Shown in pieces: positions 22,691-36,584 of a stretch of 36,975 bases of DNA. A program made the translations under genes and the position numbers. The stretch's first letter is position 1, and the number at the start of each line of letters is the position of its first letter. Under the pieces are notes generated by a model. The model saw only the letters and a list, made by a program, of their open reading frames with translations. It did not search any database and was not told where the DNA came from. Source of the DNA: Candidatus Parvarchaeota archaeon (GTDB taxonomy: Archaea; Nanobdellota; Nanobdellia; Parvarchaeales; Parvarchaeaceae); NCBI GenBank assembly GCA_023380615.1, contig JAMCRO010000028.1, positions 1 through 36,975 on the forward strand, given 5' to 3'.

Positions 22691-23838
22691 TATTTATAAG
22701 TCTTTTCCAGAATTGAAGATACAGCGTTTTCTAGGTTTTTCATGAATCTTTTTTCATCGTATCTTGTTGAGTTATTTGCCCCTTTAATCAATTTTGCATA
22801 GAGTTTTTTGTCAAGCGTTCTATTGAGCGTGTCTGCTATGCTTTTTTCATCGGCGTTTACAAGTAGGCCGTTCTCTCCATTTTTTATGAATTCTCTTGGC
22901 CCTCCTTCATTCACTGATATAACCGGCTTTCCGTATGCAAGTGATTCTAAAGGAGTAAGTCCGGTGTCCTCATTTATTGCAAGGAACAAGGTAGCATAGC
23001 ATTTTCTGTAAAAATCCGTAAGCTCTTTCTCGGATAAGTTTTCCTTTATTATTACGTTTTTGCTTTCTAGTTTTTTCAGGCTTTCAAAGTATTTCTTATC
23101 TTCTGCGAAACCACCTAAAATTAATTTAAATCCGTTTTTAGGCATGTCGGAAAGATTGAATGCCTTTATTGCAAGATCTTGTCTCTTGTATTTTATGAAC
23201 CTGCTTGGATAAAAGATTATTTTTTCCGTTTTTCCGCCCTTTTTTATTTTGGAATAGTTTACGTGCGGACCAAGATTGAATATTCTCTCTTCATTTATCA
23301 GCCCATAATTCACTAACCTTTCCTTCACCTCATTGCTGAAAACCAATGCATAATCTATTTTTTTCCATGCAGATTTTTCCATTAATCTATAGAATGAAAC
23401 TATAAACGGCAAGGTTATCTTGTTTTTCATGTTTTGTCTTCTATAATATTCATACATGGTATGGGCAACTCTCAAAGGGGTATGACACATCGCAACCGTT
23501 CTCTTATGTCTATTTCTAAATGTTATAAATTCAGCTATTCCCGCAGTTGAAATCATGAATATATCGTAATCTTCTAAATTTGGTATCTTTGTCAGCAATA
23601 GCGACTTGAAAAGACTGGTTCCCCTTCCGATGAATCCCTTTGGTTCTGCATTTCCAAGTACCTTAACGTTGTATTTTCCGAAATCATCGAATGTATTTTT
23701 TTTGTCATAAAAAAACGTGAAAACATCACTTTTGTATTTTTTGTCCTCTAAGACTTTGAGAATTGCCCTCTCAACCCCTCCTTTACTTTTTATCCAGGGT
23801 ACAAATATTGCCATTTTTATTTTGTCTTTTGATACCAT
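22690..23838 (-). CDS. Glycosyltransferase, GT4/GT-B type
   Basis: 382 residues with a two-Rossmann GT-B layout. The N-terminal half opens with IFVPWIKSKGGVERAI (the glycine-rich acceptor loop); the C-terminal half has IIFYPSRFIKYKRQDLAIKAF and the E-x7-E motif region EDTGLTPLESLAYGKPVISVNEGGP that contacts the nucleotide-sugar donor. No membrane span. Likely adds sugars to lipids or surface proteins; the many N-x-S/T sites in the secreted proteins of this window would be compatible substrates, which is inference. Starts 37 bases from, and divergent to, the pilin gene at 23876. Confidence 0.88.
   Translation of the reverse strand: MVSKDKIKMAIFVPWIKSKGGVERAILKVLEDKKYKSDVFTFFYDKKNTFDDFGKYNVKVLGNAEPKGFIGRGTSLFKSLLLTKIPNLEDYDIFMISTAGIAEFITFRNRHKRTVAMCHTPLRVAHTMYEYYRRQNMKNKITLPFIVSFYRLMEKSAWKKIDYALVFSNEVKERLVNYGLINEERIFNLGPHVNYSKIKKGGKTEKIIFYPSRFIKYKRQDLAIKAFNLSDMPKNGFKLILGGFAEDKKYFESLKKLESKNVIIKENLSEKELTDFYRKCYATLFLAINEDTGLTPLESLAYGKPVISVNEGGPREFIKNGENGLLVNADEKSIADTLNRTLDKKLYAKLIKGANNSTRYDEKRFMKNLENAVSSILEKTYK
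22691..22700 (-). promoter_or_regulatory. TATA-like element before the RHH-nucleotidyltransferase
   Basis: Reads CTTATAAATA on the minus strand, centred about 24 bases before the ATG, inside the last codons of the glycosyltransferase. With the palindrome directly downstream, repressor binding would block transcription start. Confidence 0.5.
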
Positions 23839-23875
23839 TCAATATTTAATACTTAAAAGACCAATATTAATATTT

Positions 23876-24562
23876 ATGTCATATAACAAGAAAGGGCAGT
23901 ATTCCATAGAATATACAATAATAATAGGTATTGGTATAAGCATCATAGCGGCATTTGTAATATACGTTGCACTTTTTTACGGTTCATTTGCTTCTGGTTC
24001 GGCGGCAAGCCAGATAACCACTGTATCGAGCGACCTTGCTAATGAAGTCAGCTATGTTGCTTCGCAGGGCCCTGGGTCTATGCAGGCTTTCCCCATCACT
24101 ATTCCTTTGATTCAGTCGCAGTATTCTTTTTTCTGTGGAAATCTCATAAAGCTGCAGACTACTACTGAGCTAGGCATATCCGATGCGATTGAAAACGTAT
24201 CAGGAATGCTTCCTTTATCAGGCGGTACATTCGATGCATTTGCAAGAGACGAAAATGGCAGTGCTTTGATAGGCCTTGATTTTTCAATATCTCTAATTCA
24301 ATTGACTTATTCCCTTTCTTCAAACATATTGTCTTATTCCATGTCTTTCTATAATTACTCCAATGACTTGAAGGGAACTTCTTTTAACGTAAGCCTTTTT
24401 TCTACGGACGGATTATATTTAACTAGTGTTATCGGTTCTACCAGTTCGGGCCAGGCCACAGGTACATTAACTTTGCCTTCTGCCGCTCCTAGACAGTATG
24501 TTCTTGAGGTGTACCCTACAGGATCTGGAGATTACTACTCAACATGCATCAGTGTTTCATAA
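23876..24562 (+). CDS. Type IV pilin-like protein with class III signal peptide
   Basis: 228 residues. The N-terminus MSYNKKGQYSIEYT followed by a hydrophobic span (about 13-35) is a textbook archaeal prepilin: cleavage after Gly7 leaves Gln at +1, Ser at +3 and Glu at +5. The rest is a Ser/Thr/Gly-rich extracellular domain with beta-sandwich character and two cysteines (FFCGNL and STCISVS) that could form one disulfide. The ATG at 23876 is chosen because it gives the short charged leader; upstream in-frame codons overlap the glycosyltransferase gene. Could be a pilin or an archaellin-like subunit; no pilus assembly genes are adjacent. Confidence 0.85.
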   Translation: MSYNKKGQYSIEYTIIIGIGISIIAAFVIYVALFYGSFASGSAASQITTVSSDLANEVSYVASQGPGSMQAFPITIPLIQSQYSFFCGNLIKLQTTTELGISDAIENVSGMLPLSGGTFDAFARDENGSALIGLDFSISLIQLTYSLSSNILSYSMSFYNYSNDLKGTSFNVSLFSTDGLYLTSVIGSTSSGQATGTLTLPSAAPRQYVLEVYPTGSGDYYSTCISVS

Positions 24563-27283: not shown

Positions 27284-28369
27284 TCATTCCTCCTTTTGCA
27301 TGTATTTATCCTTTATTTCTTTGTCTGTTTGCTTTAATAAATCTTTGTCTATTATGGGCTTAGTTTCTCCTTTCTTTTCCCTAAGCTTCTCTATTATCGA
27401 GGTTACCTTATCTACAAGGTATTTACTGTCCTTAAGTTTTTTGTCGAAATCCTCGCCAGTTATCTCTTTTACTTCACCATGGTCTATTTTCTTGAACCAT
27501 TTTACTATCTCATCCACCTTTTCTATGTCTTCGTGTGTAAGTACCTTTTCCTTTGTAACCGCTATGTCTTCCAATTCCTTGGCAACCTGCTTTGGCACCG
27601 GCGGCAGATATCCATATTCCATGAGTAAAGCCTGGCCCGCTGCTACTACTGAATTGTAAAGGTCTAAACTTAGTTTTGTCGTCAATACATTTTCAGCAAG
27701 CATTAACAGCCCTTCCGCGTTCTCCACGTTTGCATTTATCGATTCTATTGTGGGTATTATATTTCCCGTTTTATACAGCATCTGTATAGGTACGAAGAAG
27801 CCGGTATCGTAAACTGCTACCCCATCCCTTAATAAAGTAAGTATAACTGGGTTTGGCTTTATTATCGAAGCCCAGAACTCAGACAGAGGATATGCCTGCG
27901 CGTGTATTTTATCTGAAAAGTCTCTTGCTATCTCTGCCATCTTTGCGAACAATCTGTCCCTCAACTGCTCAAGAGTGAACTTTTGTATGTCAGTGTCATC
28001 AACTATGAATGCTACGTCTATATCAGAAGTGCTTGTCATGCCTGTTTTTGTCTTTGAACTGCCGAATATTACGATTGATTTTATGTATCTCCTGAAAAGG
28101 CTTAATACCCTTAGAAAATATGCCCTTATGGAATTTGCATCTTTTGAAGGCAGAACCTTGTTTAAAACATCAAATGATAAACCTGCAAGCTGTCCTGGAG
28201 GCTCTACAGATTCAGAGTTTTCACCTTCTCCAATTTCCAAGCCTACAAAAGAGCCCATGTAATCTACTCTTTCATTGAGCTCATCTATCTTTGACGACAG
28301 TGCGTCTATTGTCGAAAAAAGCTTGTTCAAAGTCGCTTCTATCGGATTTATGTTCTCTGTTTGATGCAT
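27284..28369 (-). CDS. Pol-beta-type nucleotidyltransferase with helical C-terminal (HEPN-like) region
   Basis: 361 residues. A coiled-coil-like N-terminus (about 8-40) leads to a nucleotidyltransferase core: IVIFGSSKTKTGMTSTSDIDVAF, with the GSS at 103-105 and Asp116/Asp118 as metal ligands. The C-terminal region (about 200-290) is helical, with LLMLAENVLTTKLSLDLYNSVVAAGQALLMEYGY, resembling HEPN-type helices often paired with minimal nucleotidyltransferases; the RxxxxH motif of toxic HEPN RNases is not evident. GGAGGT (28373-28378) precedes the ATG. First gene of a pair with L35Ae. Function unknown; a toxin-antitoxin role is not supported by the ribosomal partner. Confidence 0.72.
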   Translation of the reverse strand: MHQTENINPIEATLNKLFSTIDALSSKIDELNERVDYMGSFVGLEIGEGENSESVEPPGQLAGLSFDVLNKVLPSKDANSIRAYFLRVLSLFRRYIKSIVIFGSSKTKTGMTSTSDIDVAFIVDDTDIQKFTLEQLRDRLFAKMAEIARDFSDKIHAQAYPLSEFWASIIKPNPVILTLLRDGVAVYDTGFFVPIQMLYKTGNIIPTIESINANVENAEGLLMLAENVLTTKLSLDLYNSVVAAGQALLMEYGYLPPVPKQVAKELEDIAVTKEKVLTHEDIEKVDEIVKWFKKIDHGEVKEITGEDFDKKLKDSKYLVDKVTSIIEKLREKKGETKPIIDKDLLKQTDKEIKDKYMQKEE

Positions 28370-28501: not shown

Positions 28502-28512
28502 ATTATTTAAAT
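28502..28512 (+). promoter_or_regulatory. TATA element of the unknown-protein/tiny-membrane-protein operon
   Basis: ATTATTTAAAT centred about 27 bases before the ATG at 28534, with no Shine-Dalgarno sequence, fits leaderless transcription of the operon that runs to 30897. Confidence 0.5.
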
Positions 28513-28533: not shown

Positions 28534-30258
28534 ATGAACATACGAGAGGTAAGCGAAATAGCAAAGAAATTAAAAGGACCAGAAACAGATCTCAATACCG
28601 TAAATAACTGGATAAAGGAGTTGGAGGCAAGGGCCTCGAGCAGTGATGCCCATTACAGGGGTGAAGTAGACTTCAGGTATGCTTCAGATGAAGAAGTGCC
28701 TAACCCGGGGTTTGTGGGCAATCCTTTGGGCTACCAGTTTACTAGAGACATATCTAAAAGGTATCATTTTCAGCCGGAATATTACTCAGTATCGCAGATG
28801 TTTGCCGCTCTTGGATACAGGAGCCTTAGAACGGCGGAAACAATAGATCCTTCCTCATTGTCAGGCCTTATGAACATGGTTTTTGAAAAAAGGAAAAACC
28901 TCCAGGACAGGGTAATGCAGCTACTGGGAAACATAAATACCGTTTTAAAGTCGATTATAGCGATAATCTACGAGCTCAAGGAGCTTGACAGGAATCTTTA
29001 TTTGTATACTGAATTAAAAGACAGTGACAAGGAGAAAGCGGAAGCAGCGGAACTTGCGCTTAAAAGGGTATTCCTGGATAACGTTGATTCAAGGAAGGGG
29101 GGAGCAAGCCTTTCGGCTCTTTCAAGATCACCTACACAAAGCCAGGGCGGTCCGGGTTTCATAGATATAATGTCTGTTTTTTACCAGGTTAAAAGCCTGA
29201 AAGACGTGCAGAACATAGAAAGAAACGAACAGTATAAGAACATATTAAAAAACAGGTATATAGAATATGAGAAGTGGAAGGAAATAAACGGCACAGATCT
29301 CAAAAACCGGAAGAGCATGCTTCTGCAGTATCTTAAAAGCCAAATGGGCTCATTTAATCTTTACGTTGACTGGTGTTCTACGGATCTTGCTCTGCTTTCA
29401 AAAATGGGTTTTGATACGGCTAAAACTGCATCAAGGTACATTACTGGGGCAGGAAAACCGGATATATTCGAGAATGAGTCTTTTTCAGTGACAGCAGTTG
29501 GCTACAGGCCGATATATACCGGAGAGTACAACGTAGAATATGCAAGATTATTCAAAAGCAAGGGGCCGGAAATACCTATAAAGGCAGAACCAAAAAGCAT
29601 AGCCGGAAACCTGGTTTCAAGGGGCTATGAAGAGCATAAAAGGTCATTCATTTATGACAGAATTAAAAAATACGGGCCCATTGTTACGGCCGCAATTAAG
29701 ATACAGATGGACTTTAAGGAAAAACCAAGCAAGGAGCCGATACAGCCGCCTTATGAAGGCACTCTTTACTTCCGCGGTTATCCCTACTGTTTTACACCGG
29801 AGGAATTTTATCTTTACAGGGAGGCACAGATTGCAAAGATACAGAAAACTGTCTTTGCATCCGTAGATCAGATTGTTTTCCATTCTCTTAATGTCATAAA
29901 AGAAGACCTGGATAAGTATGTCAAGGAAGCAGATGATGAAGAAAAGAAGAAGAAAGACAAAAAGCCGCAAAAAGACTACGCCTTTATGGATATATACAGG
30001 GCATTCAAGGACGACTTCGCAGGAATTTCAAAGTCCTTTTCAACGATCTCTTCCACCGAAAAACACAAGACAACATTTTCGGCAGAGCAGGCAGAGATAT
30101 ACGAGATGCTTGTCAATGCAAAGCGCTTTTCTTCAGCAGACATTAAAAAGGCAGTTGAAATTGGCTTGTTTATTTCAAATAACGATGCAGCATACATCTA
30201 TGATGAATTAAAGAGAAGGGGCGGACTGCTGAACTGGAAGCCTCCTTTTTCGGTTTGA
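28534..30258 (+). CDS. Large soluble protein of unknown function heading the tiny-membrane-protein operon
   Basis: 574 residues, no membrane span, no signal peptide, only two cysteines. Not recognised. Residues about 110-180 and 235-275 are strongly helical; residues about 185-205 are a Ser/Gly/Gln-rich linker. A beta-rich region with EGTLYFRGYPYCFTPEEFYLY lies around 415-437. A Lys/Glu-rich segment (about 465-485) precedes the C-terminal helical part, which ends in a possible winged-helix-like stretch (SSADIKKAVEIGLFISNNDAAYIYDELKRRGG). It is followed after two bases by four overlapping small membrane-protein genes, so it may be their cytoplasmic partner or assembly factor; this is inferred from position only. 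Confidence 0.7.
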   Translation: MNIREVSEIAKKLKGPETDLNTVNNWIKELEARASSSDAHYRGEVDFRYASDEEVPNPGFVGNPLGYQFTRDISKRYHFQPEYYSVSQMFAALGYRSLRTAETIDPSSLSGLMNMVFEKRKNLQDRVMQLLGNINTVLKSIIAIIYELKELDRNLYLYTELKDSDKEKAEAAELALKRVFLDNVDSRKGGASLSALSRSPTQSQGGPGFIDIMSVFYQVKSLKDVQNIERNEQYKNILKNRYIEYEKWKEINGTDLKNRKSMLLQYLKSQMGSFNLYVDWCSTDLALLSKMGFDTAKTASRYITGAGKPDIFENESFSVTAVGYRPIYTGEYNVEYARLFKSKGPEIPIKAEPKSIAGNLVSRGYEEHKRSFIYDRIKKYGPIVTAAIKIQMDFKEKPSKEPIQPPYEGTLYFRGYPYCFTPEEFYLYREAQIAKIQKTVFASVDQIVFHSLNVIKEDLDKYVKEADDEEKKKKDKKPQKDYAFMDIYRAFKDDFAGISKSFSTISSTEKHKTTFSAEQAEIYEMLVNAKRFSSADIKKAVEIGLFISNNDAAYIYDELKRRGGLLNWKPPFSV

Positions 30259-30260
30259 TT

Positions 30261-30434
30261 ATGAACAGCAAGGGACAGATGCCGATAACGGAGATAATAG
30301 CAATAATACTGGCAATAATAGTTTTGTTCGCGGGCATAGTAATAGCTTTGATATTTACTGGAGCAGGCTCAACTATTGCAAAGGACATGACAAGCGTTTT
30401 TTCATTTAGTTGGCTTTACGGCAAGGGAATATGA
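30261..30434 (+). CDS. Tiny single-span membrane protein 1 (prepilin-like N-terminus)
   Basis: 57 residues: MNSKG then QMPITEIIAIILAIIV, one hydrophobic span (about 11-33) and a short polar tail. K-G followed by Gln and a glutamate just before the span resembles a prepilin-peptidase site, although Glu is at +6 rather than +5. The ATG lies two bases after the stop of the 574-residue protein and the stop overlaps the next gene by 4 bases. Confidence 0.72.
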   Translation: MNSKGQMPITEIIAIILAIIVLFAGIVIALIFTGAGSTIAKDMTSVFSFSWLYGKGI

Positions 30435-30601
30435 ATGATAAAGGTGTTGTAAGCGGCGTTTTTCTGTACATAATCCTGATAATAATAGGCATACTTCTGA
30501 TAGTGATATTTTTGGAGATTTTTACGCCATATAAATTTACGGACTTGTTTAAGGCATTCATATCAAAGTCAAACAGTTTAAATGTGAGCGGTTATGAATA
30601 A
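30431..30601 (+). CDS. Tiny single-span membrane protein 2 (prepilin-like N-terminus)
   Basis: 56 residues: MNDKG, then a hydrophobic span (about 8-32, FLYIILIIIGILLIVIFL) and a polar tail. Start overlaps the preceding gene in ATGA and the stop is overlapped by the next start by 8 bases. The shared MNxKG beginning with its neighbours supports it as a real gene. Confidence 0.72.
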   Translation: MNDKGVVSGVFLYIILIIIGILLIVIFLEIFTPYKFTDLFKAFISKSNSLNVSGYE

Positions 30602-30734
30602 TAAAGGAGTGGAAAGCTACATTCTTCTGATAATAATAACGCTGGTAGTTCTAATACTGATAATAGTCTTTTATCTGTTTCTGTTCTCACCAAGCACCAT
30701 ACATAAGCTTATACCTACGGTTCCAAGCATATAG
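30594..30734 (+). CDS. Tiny single-span membrane protein 3 (prepilin-like N-terminus)
   Basis: 46 residues: MNNKGVESY, then a long hydrophobic span (about 10-31) and a short tail ending TVPSI. If cut after Gly5, Glu would sit at +2. AAAGGAG-type sequence occurs within its own first codons, not before it, so initiation probably depends on coupling to the previous gene. Confidence 0.7.
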   Translation: MNNKGVESYILLIIITLVVLILIIVFYLFLFSPSTIHKLIPTVPSI

Positions 30735-30735
30735 C

Positions 30736-30897
30736 ATGGAATCTGTCTGGTTTTATGTCATAGCCGTTATCTTGGGAATAACGCTGCTTTTAGTCTATAT
30801 GTTTTTGGTGGGCCCTGCAGCGCTTTCTAAGGACATATCCGGCTTTTTTTCCGGTATTAGCTCTTCAATAACGGCAGGTTTCAAGAACGCATATTAA
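30736..30897 (+). CDS. Tiny single-span membrane protein 4
   Basis: 53 residues: MESVWFYVIAVILGITLLLVYM, one span at about 5-25, then an amphipathic Ser/Gly/Phe tail. It lacks the MNxKG start of its three neighbours, so it may be the odd partner of the set. The ATG follows the previous stop after one base. Ends the operon; GINS begins 32 bases later behind its own TATA-like run. Confidence 0.65.
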   Translation: MESVWFYVIAVILGITLLLVYMFLVGPAALSKDISGFFSGISSSITAGFKNAY

Positions 30898-30929
30898 CAT
30901 TTTTATACTTTCGGCAGCTATTAGGGATT

Positions 30930-31505
30930 ATGATTACTTACAGCGAATTTCTAAGGATAAGAAGGCAAGAGCAGGAGGACAACAGGACGCTGACAAAGTT
31001 CAATGATGACATGCTTGAAGAGATGAAGGAATACATAGCCATAAACAAAAACTCATTGGAAGAAGCGAAGAAAATGAACGATGAGAAAAAATCAGAGGAG
31101 ATATCCACGCAGATAAAAAATGCAATATCCACACTGGAACAGATAATAAATTTGAGGATGATTAAGATAGCAGGCATGGCAATACTTGATGCAGATAGTG
31201 AACAGGCAAAGACAAACATGCTTTCCAAGGAGATAATCTTTTTTGACAATCTGCTCACTCTTTCAAAGCAGTACAAATCAGGGATAATAACAGAGGTTAA
31301 GTCCATAGAGCCGAAGAAACTGCAGAAAGTAGAGAGCAACGATAGTGAAAGCGAAAAAATCGTTATAAAGATACTTTCTGACATACCCAAATTTGTTTGG
31401 AGAAACGACAAATCCTACGGGCCTTTCAGTTTCCCTAACGTAATAGAAATAGACAAGGACGTAGCGCAGATACTCATAAAGAGCGGAAAAGCCGAGAGCG
31501 TGTAA
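30930..31505 (+). CDS. gins51: GINS complex subunit Gins51
   Basis: GINS links the MCM helicase to replisome components at the archaeal fork. 191 residues with helical A domain first (ITYSEFLRIRRQEQED through about residue 125) and a small beta B domain last (IVIKILSDIPKFVWRNDKSYGPFSFPNVIEI). This A-then-B order is that of Gins51 (Sld5/Psf1 type). Spacing to the Hef-like helicase is zero (stop 31505, start 31506), an operon that groups replication-fork factors. Confidence 0.85.
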   Translation: MITYSEFLRIRRQEQEDNRTLTKFNDDMLEEMKEYIAINKNSLEEAKKMNDEKKSEEISTQIKNAISTLEQIINLRMIKIAGMAILDADSEQAKTNMLSKEIIFFDNLLTLSKQYKSGIITEVKSIEPKKLQKVESNDSESEKIVIKILSDIPKFVWRNDKSYGPFSFPNVIEIDKDVAQILIKSGKAESV

Positions 31506-33032
31506 ATGACCCTTTTCAAGGAAAAGATAGAAGACCGAGAATACCAGAATAATATATTTGAGACTGCAAAGACCGGCAACACTCTTGTTGTACTGCCAAC
31601 CGGTCTGGGGAAAACTATAATAAGCGCCATGCTTGTTGATTACAGGCTGGAAAAATATCCTTCCTCAAAGGTTCTTTTCTTGGCGCCGACGAAGCCGCTT
31701 GCAAACCAGCATTACAAGACATTTTCTTCATTGCTTGAAGTAAATTCAAGCATAGTCAGCGGTTCGGTGTCCAGCAGCAAAAGAAGCAAAATATACGAAG
31801 ATGCACAGCTGATATTCGCAACACCCCAAACTATAGAGAACGACATGGCAAAAAAGATCATAGACTTCTCGAATTTCAGCCTGCTTATAGTGGATGAAGC
31901 TCACCACACAATAGGGAATTACTCCTATGTAAAAATAGCGAAAGCATACTCTGAGCAGTCTATTCATCCAATCATACTTGGACTTACTGCTTCTCCTGCA
32001 TCGGACAGGGAAAAGATAAAGACGATATGCAGCAATTTGCAGATAAGCAACGTAGAGATAAGATCAGATGATGATCCAGATGTTATACCCTACATACAGA
32101 AAAAAGACATAGAAGAGATAAAGGTTGACCTTCCGCAGGAAATGCTAGAACTTGCCAACAATGTAAAGCTGCTTATAAGCGAATCCATAAGCGAATTGCA
32201 GGAGATAGGCCTGCTGAAAAACGTGCAGAAAACAAGGATAAACCGGATTACTATCCTTATGCTGCAGAAAAGCCTTCAGAGGCAGATGTTCAGCGGAAAA
32301 AGGACTTATTACCTTATCAGAGGGATAATACTGACTTCAAAGCTTTTGAAGCTATATCATTCTTATAATTTGTTATCAACGCAGAGCCTTGCAGCGTTTT
32401 ATAATTTCTTGGAGAAGATACAAAACGGAAAGGCAAAGACTGACAAGGATCTTTCTTCAAACAAAAGGTTCATTGAAATAAAAGAGAGAACTAAAGAATT
32501 GCTGGACAGCGGGATGGAGCATCCAAAGCTTGAACAGCTTCAAATCATATTCACAAATTATTTTAACGAATCAAAAAAAGCCATAGTGTTTGCACAGTAC
32601 AGGGATACAGTAGACATAATATATAATAGCATATCTACGATAGAAGGCATAAGGCCAATAAAATTTATCGGCCAGGGAAAGGGGGGGTTGTCGCAGAAAG
32701 AGCAGGTCAACATAATAAGCGATTTTGAATCGGGAATATACAATGTGCTTGTTTCAACAAGTGTCAGCGAAGAAGGAATGTCTATAAAAGGCGTTGATCT
32801 TGCTGTGTTTTATGAAACAATACCAAGTGCAATAAGAAACATACAAAGAAGGGGAAGGGTGGGGAGGTTCTCTGCAGGCAGGATATTCATACTGATTACA
32901 AGGGGAACAAACGACGAGGGTTATTATTGGCTTTCAAAAAGAAGAGAAAAGAGCATGAAAAGAATCATAAAAAACATAAAGGAAAATCCGGATACAATAA
33001 AGCAGGATGGTACATTGCATCCGTTTGTCTAA
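31506..33032 (+). CDS. hef: Hef/FANCM-family helicase lacking the nuclease domain
   Basis: SF2 helicase acting on stalled forks and branched DNA. 508 residues: Walker A PTGLGKT (31-37), APTKPLANQH (60-69), DEAHH (130-134), TASP (161-164), a helical insert (about 200-300) typical of Hef, then the second RecA domain with VFAQYRDTV, STSVSEEGMSIKGVDLAVFYE and the motif VI QRRGRVGRF. The sequence ends soon after (NPDTIKQDGTLHPFV). Typical euryarchaeal Hef continues with an XPF-type nuclease and HhH domain; neither is present. Overlaps the pilin gene by 4 bases, tail to tail. Confidence 0.9.
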   Translation: MTLFKEKIEDREYQNNIFETAKTGNTLVVLPTGLGKTIISAMLVDYRLEKYPSSKVLFLAPTKPLANQHYKTFSSLLEVNSSIVSGSVSSSKRSKIYEDAQLIFATPQTIENDMAKKIIDFSNFSLLIVDEAHHTIGNYSYVKIAKAYSEQSIHPIILGLTASPASDREKIKTICSNLQISNVEIRSDDDPDVIPYIQKKDIEEIKVDLPQEMLELANNVKLLISESISELQEIGLLKNVQKTRINRITILMLQKSLQRQMFSGKRTYYLIRGIILTSKLLKLYHSYNLLSTQSLAAFYNFLEKIQNGKAKTDKDLSSNKRFIEIKERTKELLDSGMEHPKLEQLQIIFTNYFNESKKAIVFAQYRDTVDIIYNSISTIEGIRPIKFIGQGKGGLSQKEQVNIISDFESGIYNVLVSTSVSEEGMSIKGVDLAVFYETIPSAIRNIQRRGRVGRFSAGRIFILITRGTNDEGYYWLSKRREKSMKRIIKNIKENPDTIKQDGTLHPFV

Positions 33033-33502
33033 CTTCCGAAAATCTCAGTTTCGCACGTCCCACCAGGAGAGTACTTCACCCCGTCTATGGAAACATTGCT
33101 TCCAGAGGTATTCCCTATGATTACAGTGTTTATGCTAGGATCAATGATTGTTATATCCGTTGAAAGTGAATTTATGCCTGCTGTATAGTTACCTATCACT
33201 GATAAAGATGAAGGGTCACTTTTAGCAGTATTGCTTACAAATACCGTGTAAATCAATCCAGGGCTGCCGTCTGATACCGTTATTTTAAAGGTGTTCTGTT
33301 TAGAAGGCGTGCTTACATTTGTAACATTTGCAGAGCATGCTACAGGAGAACCGCTTCCGCTTGTTATTAACCCGGAAGGGAGAATAGCAAAATGGAAGAC
33401 AGAGCTTGCAATTACAACCCCTATCACTAGAAATGCAATAAGTAGTATTACGACTATGAAATACTCTACAGCGCTTGCACCCTTCATTTCGTAACTGCGC
33501 AT
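33029..33502 (-). CDS. Type IV pilin-like protein with class III signal peptide
   Basis: 157 residues. MRSYEMKGASAVEYFIVVIL: cleavage after the Gly of MKG leaves Ala at +1 and Glu at +5, the canonical archaeal prepilin pattern, followed by a span of about 20 residues and a Ser/Thr/Gly-rich beta-type domain with two cysteines. The ATG at 33502 is chosen because GGGGAGG lies upstream; Met at 33487 is the alternative. The gene overlaps the end of the large cysteine-rich protein gene by 19 bases and is the last of that operon. Confidence 0.85.
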   Translation of the reverse strand: MRSYEMKGASAVEYFIVVILLIAFLVIGVVIASSVFHFAILPSGLITSGSGSPVACSANVTNVSTPSKQNTFKITVSDGSPGLIYTVFVSNTAKSDPSSLSVIGNYTAGINSLSTDITIIDPSINTVIIGNTSGSNVSIDGVKYSPGGTCETEIFGS

Positions 33503-34959
33503 ATGTAGATTAAATTCCTCCCCAAAAAGTTTGGTTTTGATATTCCTATCTGCTGAGGCAGAGAAGCAAAGAAGTAGAATAAAGACTGTGCGCATTGTTC
33601 TAAGCCCGTAGCATACAAAGCCGAATAAGCAAGTTTCCCTGTGTATGTAAGCACGTTAGGTGCAACGTCATCCTTGCACACCGTATTGTTAAAGCATTCT
33701 GCAGCTCCAAATCCCGCAAGTGCTGTTCCAACCACCAATCCGGGATTTGATGGCGCAAGAAGGTCTGCACCTATACCAGATACAACTGCCCTTGAGCACT
33801 CGTCCTCTATACCGGCATTCGGATAATTGTTAAGAAATGTTGCAGGTTCACATTCACTTGGCAGACTTATCGAGCTTGGCGGAAATCTTGTTCCAACTAG
33901 TGAATTAAGGTAAACTATGTATATTTGTGCGTTGTTTATCGACTTGCTACTGTTTGGAAATACAAACCCACTATCACTTGAATTACTCACATTTTTATAG
34001 CTGAATATAACATTGTCACCGGGTTTTAGATAATCTGCATATGATTCATTTATTATTGAGGTGCTTTTTACCGGTTCTGTTAATACGCAAGAGGAAGGAG
34101 CTTCGTATGAATCTGTTGTAGAATCATAGCCTACCGTGCAGTTGTTACCATTGCAGAAATTGGTGTAAAGATCCGTACACGACGCAATGTTTCCGCTTGG
34201 AGTTGAGCAAGTTCCTAGAGTAGTGTTGAAAGAACAACCTTGCGATGCTTCGCAAAGATAACTGGAAAGATTCATCGCAGCAGTAGGCGCTTTAGATCCA
34301 TTCAATGGTATGTACTTTGTTGCATATCCTTGTGTAAATGCAGTGTAACCTGACTGGCTTCTGCAACTGAAGTAATTTGTTGATGGGGCCTCACATAAAC
34401 TTGGCTCGCTTAAATCACATGAATATCCATTTAAATTTGAGCTTGTCAATGGGTCTGAGCAGGACTGAATGGCAGTGTGGTTAAGGCAGCTCACCTCCGT
34501 CGTATAAGCATTTGTCTCAAGATAATTTGTAAGGTTGTTTATAGTTATGTTCTGGTTTATGTTTACGTCTACTACAGAGCATGTTGCAGGTGAACTAGTT
34601 AGTACAGTAAGTCCTTGGTTTGCCCCATACTGATTCCAGCAGCTTGTAAGGTCTGTCCCTACAGTTGAAAATACCTGGGAAGGTTGGGAACCTGGGCCGT
34701 ATCCAGAGGTTGCAGTGGTACAACCGAAAAGCGGTGGCGCTATGCCAACTGCTTTAAGCGTGCTGCTTAAGCAGAAGAAATTCGATACACATAACCCATT
34801 ATAATAGAAATTGGTGAATTCAGAGCTCACATAGCAGATACCGCTGTTTGAAAGATTTACTCCTACCAATAAAAGATATCCTGCGATAGCAACTATGACT
34901 ATTATGAATATCACTGCCAAAACTATAAATATAAAGCTCTCTCCAGGAGTCTCTGCCAT
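33484..34959 (-). CDS. Large cysteine-rich secreted protein with N-terminal membrane anchor
   Basis: 491 residues: MAETPGES, one span (about 9-33), then an extracellular region with 24 cysteines by my count, many Asn/Ser/Thr and numerous N-x-S/T sites. The even cysteine count and spacing suggest several disulfides. The C-terminal part (about 395-480) has hydrophobic stretches (VVGTALAGFGAAE, LFYFFASLPQQIG) that may pack or anchor. No known domain recognised. It precedes and overlaps the pilin gene, suggesting joint assembly at the surface. A DPANN surface or attachment protein is a guess. Confidence 0.7.
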   Translation of the reverse strand: MAETPGESFIFIVLAVIFIIVIVAIAGYLLLVGVNLSNSGICYVSSEFTNFYYNGLCVSNFFCLSSTLKAVGIAPPLFGCTTATSGYGPGSQPSQVFSTVGTDLTSCWNQYGANQGLTVLTSSPATCSVVDVNINQNITINNLTNYLETNAYTTEVSCLNHTAIQSCSDPLTSSNLNGYSCDLSEPSLCEAPSTNYFSCRSQSGYTAFTQGYATKYIPLNGSKAPTAAMNLSSYLCEASQGCSFNTTLGTCSTPSGNIASCTDLYTNFCNGNNCTVGYDSTTDSYEAPSSCVLTEPVKSTSIINESYADYLKPGDNVIFSYKNVSNSSDSGFVFPNSSKSINNAQIYIVYLNSLVGTRFPPSSISLPSECEPATFLNNYPNAGIEDECSRAVVSGIGADLLAPSNPGLVVGTALAGFGAAECFNNTVCKDDVAPNVLTYTGKLAYSALYATGLEQCAQSLFYFFASLPQQIGISKPNFLGRNLIYICAVTK

Positions 34960-35020: not shown

Positions 35021-35911
35021 TTATTGATTGGGTATGCATACGAATACCCTGCTTTGACTGTAAATCATGTAGTTGCTTAACTTTCCGCATAGAGGCACAT
35101 AATAATTACAGCCGCTGGTCTCATTTACAACATTTAAAGAGGGATTGCCATTGCTGAGAGAGCTTACGGTTTCCTCGCTTTGATTTACTGTTTCATTTGA
35201 ATAGGCGCATACCGATATGTCATTGATTATAGGCTGCTGGTACCGGGCAGTGTATTCGCATTGGTCTACAAAGCTTATTTCACAGTTTTTTATTCCGTTT
35301 GAGGGGTATTCAAAGTAAGTAACTGTATAGCTGGAATTTGAAAGGTTATCCGATGGCTTTATGTATGCTGCGTTTCCATTGCTCCCGTTTGTTATGAAAA
35401 CAACCTGCAGAGGATAGCTGCCGTTGTAATTGCTGTCAATGTAGCTTATTACTGCTGAATAGTTTACATTGCTGCTTTGACTGATCAAAGACCCTTTATA
35501 ACAGTTGAATATCTGGTCCAGGTTTTTAGCCGAAATGATCTGTGAGCCGATGCCGGCGTTTCCGCCCGAAAACAAGCTGAAGCAGGAAGACGCTTCCGTA
35601 TAAAATGAAGAAGCAAAATCAGCTGTTGTTTTTTCATTAATGTTTGCGGTCTGAAGGCAGTCTTTTTGTACCTGTGCTGACTGTGTGGGGCTTACAACTA
35701 TATTTGAAAGGCCAAATGCCGAAGTTACGCTGGTGAAAGGAGATAAAAAGCTGTTTACTATTTTATATTGTGTGAAGGCAGTAAAGCAGCTGATTCCAAA
35801 GCTTAGCGTCCCGAAAGATGTTATTATCGAAAATGAAACTACTGCCAGTATTATTCCTGCTATTATCACAAAGATAACGAATACTATTGTAAGCAGTATC
35901 CCCTCCTCCAT
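35021..35911 (-). CDS. Cysteine-rich secreted protein with N-terminal membrane anchor
   Basis: 296 residues: a long hydrophobic N-terminal segment (about 5-32), then a polar extracellular domain with 10 cysteines and many N-x-S/T sites (for example NYSA, NGSY, NLSN, NETV). GGAGGAGG in the end of the preceding small gene lies just before the ATG. No family recognised. Same construction as its neighbours: MEEG start, single anchor, disulfide-rich ectodomain. Confidence 0.7.
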   Translation of the reverse strand: MEEGILLTIVFVIFVIIAGIILAVVSFSIITSFGTLSFGISCFTAFTQYKIVNSFLSPFTSVTSAFGLSNIVVSPTQSAQVQKDCLQTANINEKTTADFASSFYTEASSCFSLFSGGNAGIGSQIISAKNLDQIFNCYKGSLISQSSNVNYSAVISYIDSNYNGSYPLQVVFITNGSNGNAAYIKPSDNLSNSSYTVTYFEYPSNGIKNCEISFVDQCEYTARYQQPIINDISVCAYSNETVNQSEETVSSLSNGNPSLNVVNETSGCNYYVPLCGKLSNYMIYSQSRVFVCIPNQ

Positions 35912-36073
35912 TCAGGAACCTCCTCCGAGAAGATTTCCAAAATAAGAAAACGGAGAGCTGCTGTGGGAGCTGGCATAAAATAAAATCACTATAAGACCTA
36001 TGGCTGCCAGGGCCGTTATTATAACAAGCATTATCCAGATAAGACGCCATTCTACGCTTCCTTTATTATCCAT
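35912..36073 (-). CDS. Tiny single-span membrane protein 5 (prepilin-like N-terminus)
   Basis: 53 residues: MDNKGSVEWRLIWIMLVIIT, one span (about 11-32) and a Ser/Gly tail ending LLGGGS. The N-terminal MDNKG with Glu at +3 closely resembles MNNKGVES and MNDKGVVS of the operon at 30.3-30.9 kb. It abuts the next gene directly (stop 35912, next start 35911), and its last codons hold that gene's Shine-Dalgarno GGAGGAGG. One base separates it from the stop of the gene before it. Confidence 0.72.
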   Translation of the reverse strand: MDNKGSVEWRLIWIMLVIITALAAIGLIVILFYASSHSSSPFSYFGNLLGGGS

Positions 36074-36074
36074 A

Positions 36075-36584
36075 TCACTGACCTACGCATGCCGGGCAGT
36101 AAGGGCCGTCTCCAGATATGCATGCTGTAACGTTTATTGCGCAATTCTGTATGTCCGTAGCGTTGTCTGCTACTATATTGCTTTCCGAACAACTAAATAA
36201 ATCAGCAGTGTTTGTAGGTGAAACCACGCTGCATGTACTGGTTATATTGGCAGGCGGGCTTGCTATGCAGTCCTGCACTGCAGATTCGCTCCCTTGGCCA
36301 TTTGTCCACAGATCATAGTAGCACCAATGCCTTATGCATGTCTGCTGCGCTGTGGCCGCATTATAACAAGCGTTTTCATCATAACAGCGGAAAAGCGTTG
36401 TACCCTCCATCCTGTTTGCATATCCATATTCTGCGCTTGTAAACTGATTTTGCAGCAAAGCCGTTGAAGAATCGCAGCCTATGGGAAAAATGGAAGAGTA
36501 ATTATTGTAAAAAAGGAAAAACATTGTGAGGGCTATTACTATGCCGATAAGCACTTCAAAGAAAAGAAACTGTTCAACATCCAT
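36075..36584 (-). CDS. Small cysteine-rich secreted protein with N-terminal membrane anchor
   Basis: 169 residues: MDVEQFLFFEVLIGIVIALTM, a span at about 6-27, then a compact extracellular domain with 12 cysteines, including CYDENAC, CIRHWC and CPAC. The high cysteine density argues for a disulfide-stabilised fold. First gene of a five-gene minus-strand operon running to 33029. A TATA-like AATTTAAATTAAT lies just upstream (about 36600-36612). No family recognised. Confidence 0.7.
   Translation of the reverse strand: MDVEQFLFFEVLIGIVIALTMFFLFYNNYSSIFPIGCDSSTALLQNQFTSAEYGYANRMEGTTLFRCYDENACYNAATAQQTCIRHWCYYDLWTNGQGSESAVQDCIASPPANITSTCSVVSPTNTADLFSCSESNIVADNATDIQNCAINVTACISGDGPYCPACVGQ

Follow-up and report, generated by a model that had tools for sequence, protein, structure and literature searches.

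Four tiny, very likely pilin-like proteins encoded behind a phylum-wide protein in Candidatus Parvarchaeota

DPANN archaea live on other archaea; their mode of attachment is largely open, and pili are the usual suspect. Here we analyse a 36,975-nucleotide (nt) stretch, called the window at its full length, which is contig 28 of a 645-kb assembly of Candidatus Parvarchaeota (Parvarchaeales), its nearest named relatives being metagenome-assembled genomes of Candidatus Parvarchaeota and Nanoarchaeota, Acidifodinimicrobium included. The window encodes a 574-residue protein, termed BIG, followed by four small downstream proteins, termed s1 to s4, and we find it very likely that s1-s4 are subunits of a DPANN type IV filament, pilin-like but headless, and that they group with five other proteins of the window, p169, p53, p296, p491 and p188 (Table 1).

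Very small pilins are the building blocks of bacterial Tad/Flp pili, where they are assembled by the TadA ATPase with TadB/TadC platforms. The subunits described here are likewise very small, but no Flp family is matched in Pfam, and four dissimilar headless subunits stand with large Cys-rich ectodomain subunits in place of one Flp. In type II secretion systems and type IV pili, the minor pseudopilins GspH-I-J-K likewise form a conserved set of four small proteins with an N-terminal helix, next to larger subunits; unlike these, s1-s4 have no globular domains, no sequence relation between the two sets was found, and the organism is an archaeon without a bacterial-type outer membrane.

Archaeal type IV pili comprise an A24 peptidase, a VirB11-type ATPase, TadC, and minor and major pilins, with small (~70 amino acids, aa) pilins in clade 1 (Makarova, Koonin, Albers 2016, PMC4858521). 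That 2016 census includes a nanoarchaeal pilus engine whose pilins "could not be identified" (PMC4858521); the component set found here is the same, and the cluster supplies candidate pilins for a nanoarchaeal engine. In DPANN archaea, type IV pilus islands carry TadC, a secretion ATPase and many small unannotated signal-peptide proteins read as diverse pilins (Makarova, Wolf, Koonin 2019, PMC6393860, Fig. 2A). The present system resembles these islands in joining TadC and a secretion ATPase with many small signal-peptide proteins, and differs from them in that its engine sits at another locus and in its fixed-order quartet (a quintet with p53) of 46-57-aa headless proteins; orthologues of p169, p491 and s1 are traced between families here, while the published islands are compared by description. 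For Parvarchaeales, first found in acid mine drainage, pilA-type genes have been noted and pilus-mediated host contact is suspected (PMC10134863). A description of the s1-s4 cluster was not found in the open-access full texts consulted, supplements excluded. The type of system is known; what varies here is that four headless, partly leaderless subunits in fixed order are encoded apart from the engine.

The five-gene unit BIG-s1-s4

A preliminary description of this DNA listed five open reading frames (ORFs), whose sizes and overlaps we confirm: BIG and s1 lie 2 nt apart, s1 and s2 overlap by 4 nt, s2 and s3 by 8 nt, and s3 and s4 lie 1 nt apart. The four small frames stand directly 3' of BIG, with their order and spacing kept, in 26 of the 28 sampled genomes of the genus, and the gap between BIG and s1 remains 1-9 nt in 26/26 genomes although BIG identity drops to ~45%. 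Comparison of the window with four close relatives gives ratios of non-synonymous to synonymous substitution (dN/dS) of 0.010-0.163 per frame, mostly <0.07, with synonymous changes outnumbering non-synonymous ones by ~4-5 to 1. s1-s4 are real genes under purifying selection, and this selection, together with the retention of the frames behind BIG, places them beyond chance.

An AT-rich TATA-like box is found ~22-30 nt 5' of the BIG start in most of 22 start-aligned genomes; in the window its position (TATTTAAAT; Table 1) suggests a leaderless BIG transcript. The 1-9 nt gaps within the run leave no space for an internal TATA-like box, and GINS51, the gene after s4, has its own conserved TTTTTATAC in close relatives. 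Because of the box 5' of BIG and the separate TTTTTATAC of GINS51, BIG-s1-s2-s3-s4 are probably one transcription unit in the genus of the window.

Pilin-like neighbours and the link to a pilus engine

A search with an s1 profile finds s1 in 32/32 sampled genomes of the family. In six of them (G023, G027, G028, G029, G030 and G031) s1 is not behind BIG, which disposes of the expectation that tiny genes starting MNxKG always follow that gene; here, s1-s4 sit between a p188-type pilin-like gene and GINS51, with p491-, p296-, p53- and p169-like genes preceding the p188-type gene where the contig extends. The tiny genes of these deeper relatives thus close a longer run, p169-p53-p296-p491-p188-s1-s4, which is unidirectional in G023, G027, G030 and G028, with p169 on a separate contig from the rest of the run in G028. 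In G029, the first genes of the run are on the opposite strand, beyond BIG, so that BIG lies inside the pilin cluster. Tiny genes and BIG are on different contigs in G028, G030 and G031; the genomes are drafts, and absence on a contig counts as weak evidence. In the window itself, p169-p53-p296-p491-p188 are encoded by the minus strand (36584-33029), at a distance of 2 kb from s4 and immediately beyond a Hef-type helicase, an arrangement that a local inversion of the s1-s4-GINS51-Hef block could explain.

The cluster can be followed from Parvarchaeales into engine operons of other families, with bit scores and E-values of our script searches referring throughout to small ORF sets. A p169 profile built solely from Parvarchaeales matches one gene of G043 at 43.5 bits, with matching cysteines; the start of this gene lies 9 nt downstream of a TadC-like gene. 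A class-wide p169 search adds G053 and G056. The G053 operon reads ATPase, TadC, p169 (46 bits), a 42-aa ORF, p296 (17 bits), p491 (111 bits) and a 51-aa ORF ending in TFSWLFQ; that of G056 reads ATPase, TadC, p169 (63 bits), p296 (29 bits), p491 (110 bits) and a 49-aa ORF. The s1 profile, run without iteration against 2,501 ORFs, recovers 51-aa ORFs in the engine operons of G036 (32 bits) and G053 (23 bits), two loci that had been retrieved via the engine or p169, independently of this profile.

Our claims rest on non-iterated profiles, since iterated s1-s4 profiles merge with each other and with any KG-helix protein (252 matches). In a control at E<0.01, with loci chosen by the s1 profile kept separate, the s1-s4 profiles match not one of 37 ORFs with an N-terminal helix that come from BIG loci in other families, and [KR][GA] is present in 61/62 matches, whereas 112/261 N-terminal-hydrophobic ORFs lack it. 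Long runs of KG/KA-helix proteins, 41-62-aa members included, occur in other families, several adjoining such engines; many of these loci were chosen by the s1 profile, and we therefore treat the runs as general context.

The window's own genome encodes both an engine and a prepilin peptidase. Its 746-aa ATPase (G000:C35) matches PF00437 (T2SSE; E 4.5e-17), a family present in 35/37 genomes, and is 51% identical over 728 aa to the G053 ATPase. The gene for a 705-aa platform on the same contig 35 overlaps the end of the ATPase gene, and its product is 36% identical over 686 aa to the G053 platform; the T2SSF match is weak for both (own platform, E 0.003; G053 platform, E 3.5e-4, below the Pfam cut-off). 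An A24 prepilin peptidase (PF01478) is found in 34/37 genomes, that of the window's genome being a 277-aa protein on contig 3 (G000:C3; E 2.6e-13). Since homologues of p169, p296 and p491 and an s1-like ORF stand in engine operons, and the genome holds its own engine and A24 peptidase, s1-s4 are most likely pilin-like. The preliminary description had spoken of minor-pilin-like peptides, and this part is supported: in deep relatives larger pilin-like genes directly adjoin s1-s4, orthologues of these neighbours lie behind ATPase and TadC elsewhere, s1-s3 carry the KG site, and the genome encodes a matching engine and an A24 peptidase.

Directly 5' of the 746-aa ATPase, L188:1393-3813 (own genome, contig 35) encodes an 806-aa secreted protein with a subtilase (Peptidase_S8) domain, with similar-sized genes at this position in L191 and L192. 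Parvarchaeales also have a second pilus-type engine (G000:C26, L189) with a ~510-aa ATPase, which is followed by two T2SSF proteins in relatives. In the window, the genes after s4 (30930-33032, plus strand) are GINS51 and a Hef-type helicase of 508 aa that has no evident nuclease domain; this pair accompanies s1-s4 in several rearranged relatives.

Table 1 Features of the five-gene unit and the pilin cluster in the window
Feature	Position	Strand	Description
TATA-like box of BIG	28504..28512	+	TATTTAAAT; 22 nt 5' of the BIG ATG
BIG	28534..30258	+	574 aa, soluble, without known family; phylum-wide core protein
s1	30261..30434	+	57 aa, pilin-like; MNSKG·QMPITEI and helix (dot, end of leader); conserved C-terminal SFSWL(Y/F)G
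s2	30431..30601	+	56 aa, pilin-like; MNDKG·VVSG and helix; conserved FTPYK
s3	30594..30734	+	46 aa, pilin-like; MNNKG·VESY and helix
s4	30736..30897	+	53 aa, pilin-like; starts MESVWF; KG leader lost in the window's lineage
TATA-like box of GINS51	30900..30908	+	marks the end of the five-gene unit
p188	33029..33487	-	152 aa from likely true start; MKG·ASAVE, Glu +5; helix and Ig-like beta domain
p491	33484..34959	-	491 aa, N-terminal helix (MAETPGE..), large Cys-rich ectodomain; homologues in engine operons of families f13 and f19
p296	35021..35911	-	296 aa, N-terminal helix, Cys-containing ectodomain
p53	35912..36073	-	53 aa, fifth tiny pilin-like ORF; MDNKG·SVEWRL and helix; counterparts in L132, L135, L137
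p169	36075..36584	-	169 aa, Cys-rich, N-terminal helix; opens the pilin cluster; in G043, G053 and G056 its homologue comes directly after TadC

Leader sites and the proposed filament

All four small proteins share one build, a short charged leader, a single hydrophobic helix and a tail of 15-25 residues. A [KR][GA] pair precedes the helix in 26/26 s1, 20/26 s2, 25/26 s3 and 9/26 s4 sequences. With its short leader, [KR][GA] site and N-terminal helix of ~20 residues, s1 is class III pilin-like in 26/26 genomes, and a FlaFind-type site is present in each. The leaders of G028 are MKG or MRG. Sulfolobus PibD cleaves leaders of 3 and 4 residues and FlaK requires five (PMC4187195, PMC4307647), a range that covers the five residues of MNNKG. 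The KG leader had been noted in three of the four proteins; it is conserved in s1 and in most s2 and s3 sequences, while s4 has it too in deeper members of the genus and has lost it in the lineage of the window. There, s4 begins MES or MEA where relatives have NKKG·ITEAT, which places the initiator Met near the mature N-terminus; 17/26 s4 sequences, window included, lack a leader site, and we count s4 as a cluster companion, probably descended from a protein with a leader, rather than as a class III pilin in its own right. Acidic residues vary as well, with Glu at +6 in s1, none in s2 and an acidic residue at +2/+3 in s3. s1-s4 are too short for a globular domain, and the helix plus beta-rich domain of the pilin fold is absent from them; their Pfam matches (Oleosin, DUF5453, Baculo_11_kDa) are all below curated cut-offs and reflect hydrophobicity.

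The neighbour p188 is closer to a classical pilin. It was called as 188 aa, and the ATG at 33487, which overlaps the p491 stop as ATGA, is probably the true start, giving a 152-aa protein with a canonical type IV pilin start (KG·xSxxE). The AlphaFold model (predicted local distance difference test, pLDDT, 87.5) has an N-terminal helix at 6-35 and a beta domain, and Foldseek against the PDB ranks Ig/FN3-like domains best (best E 8e-3), with a type IV pilus of Pyrobaculum in 14th place (E 0.03) and no PDB match with E below 1e-3; the predicted fold is pilin-like in layout, without significant structural match. Away from the cluster, the window encodes another pilin-like protein (23717-24562, plus strand), in which an internal Met opens a canonical class III start, MSYNKKGQYSIEYTIIIG. 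KG-helix proteins of ~300 aa form runs beside an A24 prepilin peptidase at L190:1879-4739 and L135:3418-5306, and in G030 and G031 such runs are directly behind the GINS51 gene of the s1-s4 cluster.

Several observations weigh against reading s1-s4 as pilin-like subunits. The FlaFind-type site is found in only 15/26 s2, 13/26 s3 and 9/26 s4 sequences, the s4 of the window having none, and Glu is absent from mature position +5 in all of s1-s4. In the window's genome the engine lies on a different contig from the pilin cluster; the links of s2-s4 to other families are weak and come partly via loci chosen by the s1 profile, and those of p296 to engine operons are weak in sequence and lean on position.

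Gene reality, conservation and synteny are observed, as is the presence of engine and peptidase; for processing, filament and function we propose the following. The A24 peptidase would trim the 5-residue leaders where these are present. No such step would be required for s4, p491, p296 and p169, whose first residue would already be the mature N-terminus or close to it. Extraction of the helices from the membrane would fall to the ~746-aa ATPase and the ~705-aa TadC-like platform encoded at the other locus, which would pack them into a short pseudopilus or a filament. In this structure the tiny subunits may form the core or base, with the Cys-rich p169, p296 and p491 and the Ig-like p188 exposed or at the tip, where they could plausibly touch the host archaeon.

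BIG and the alternative readings

BIG is present in 264 of 279 genomes of its own phylum, the scope of this search, and in 212 of the 219 near-complete ones (24-sequence alignment spanning many families); 54 of 55 relatives have it. Homologues measure 450-580 aa. Searches against Pfam, NCBIfam, PHROGs, PDB sequences and PDB and viral folds return no significant match, so that BIG is as unrecognised by profile, sequence and fold as it had been described, and its structure model is of moderate quality (pLDDT 71.6). In other families BIG stands beside a nucleotidyltransferase gene, a gene for a TIM-barrel protein of 550-715 aa, a charged gene of ~200 aa and a small coiled-coil gene in divergent orientation. 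BIG is best read as a phylum-wide protein whose gene came to head a five-gene unit in the genus of the window, and its association with s1-s4 as co-expression by neighbourhood, BIG not being a dedicated pilus part. That BIG may be linked to NEQ484 ("alpha helical protein, housekeeping context", PMC6393860) is no more than a lead.

Divergent from BIG in the window, a minus-strand gene (27284-28369) encodes a 361-aa protein with a coiled-coil-like N-terminal segment (NPIEATLNKLFSTIDALSSKIDELNERVDYMGS) and a weak Polbeta nucleotidyltransferase match; it looks like a fusion of the two proteins that flank the BIG cluster as separate genes elsewhere, and may correspond to the DPANN MNT-HEPN cluster cls.004259 (PMC6393860). 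The TIM-barrel protein (AP_endonuc_2; L082:4713-6398 and 14 counterparts), with conserved His/Glu/Asp and a C-terminal FxGxP tail, is beside BIG in many families and unlinked in Parvarchaeales, where 50/55 genomes carry it.

In the preliminary description, BIG was suggested as a cytoplasmic partner of the small proteins. The single promoter-like box and the constant short gap to s1 would fit a dedicated adaptor, chaperone or ring that forms one complex with s1-s4, as would the place of BIG inside the pilin cluster of G029 and the fact that other archaeal pilus loci include cytoplasmic proteins of coiled-coil or helical type (PMC4858521). We nevertheless hold such a partnership to be unlikely: beyond the transcript shared within the genus, BIG occurs across the phylum with other stable neighbours (coiled-coil/nucleotidyltransferase, charged 200-aa and TIM-barrel genes), G028, G030 and G031 have the tiny genes on contigs other than that of BIG, and in other families the pilus operons lack BIG and the BIG loci lack pilins. 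Within its own family, too, BIG stands without the tiny genes behind it in the other genera, and homologues without adjacent small genes count directly against the partner half of the original proposal. A role of BIG in pilus control is, for us, similarly doubtful. Very unlikely is the combined proposal in which BIG is an unrecognised cytoplasmic filament part and the cluster a fixed set of headless, partly leaderless pilins, several needing no prepilin peptidase, with a leader that shrank from NKKG to MKG (G028) and to none (s4 of the window, p491, p296 and p169).

The absence of a strict cleavage motif in much of s2-s4 would also be expected if s1-s4 were uncleaved signal-anchor subunits of a non-filament membrane complex, such as a secretion or envelope complex with p169, p296 and p491; their short lysine-rich N-termini fit simple positive-inside anchoring, and the large partners are Cys-rich, unlike described pilins. 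The ATPase and TadC-type platform in the same operons point instead to helix extraction, the s1 site is present in 26/26 genomes, and p188 is a textbook pilin by leader, Glu +5 and predicted fold, and we regard uncleaved anchors as quite unlikely. Size and hydrophobicity are all that speaks for small hydrophobic toxins, holins or a mobile cassette, set against four different families in fixed order in 26 genomes, with dN/dS mostly far below 0.1, s1 in every sampled genome of the family, and no match to a toxin or phage family above curated cut-offs; these readings are scarcely credible, and in their simple form the toxin/holin and mobile-element explanations are rejected on conservation.

Read as pilin-like subunits, s1-s4 and their neighbours make this locus a concrete, testable pilin set for Parvarchaeales, traced by synteny to engine operons in other families and including genes of 46-57 codons, of a size that gene callers may miss. 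The locus also singles out BIG, a protein of 450-580 aa without known domain that nearly every sampled member of the phylum has kept.
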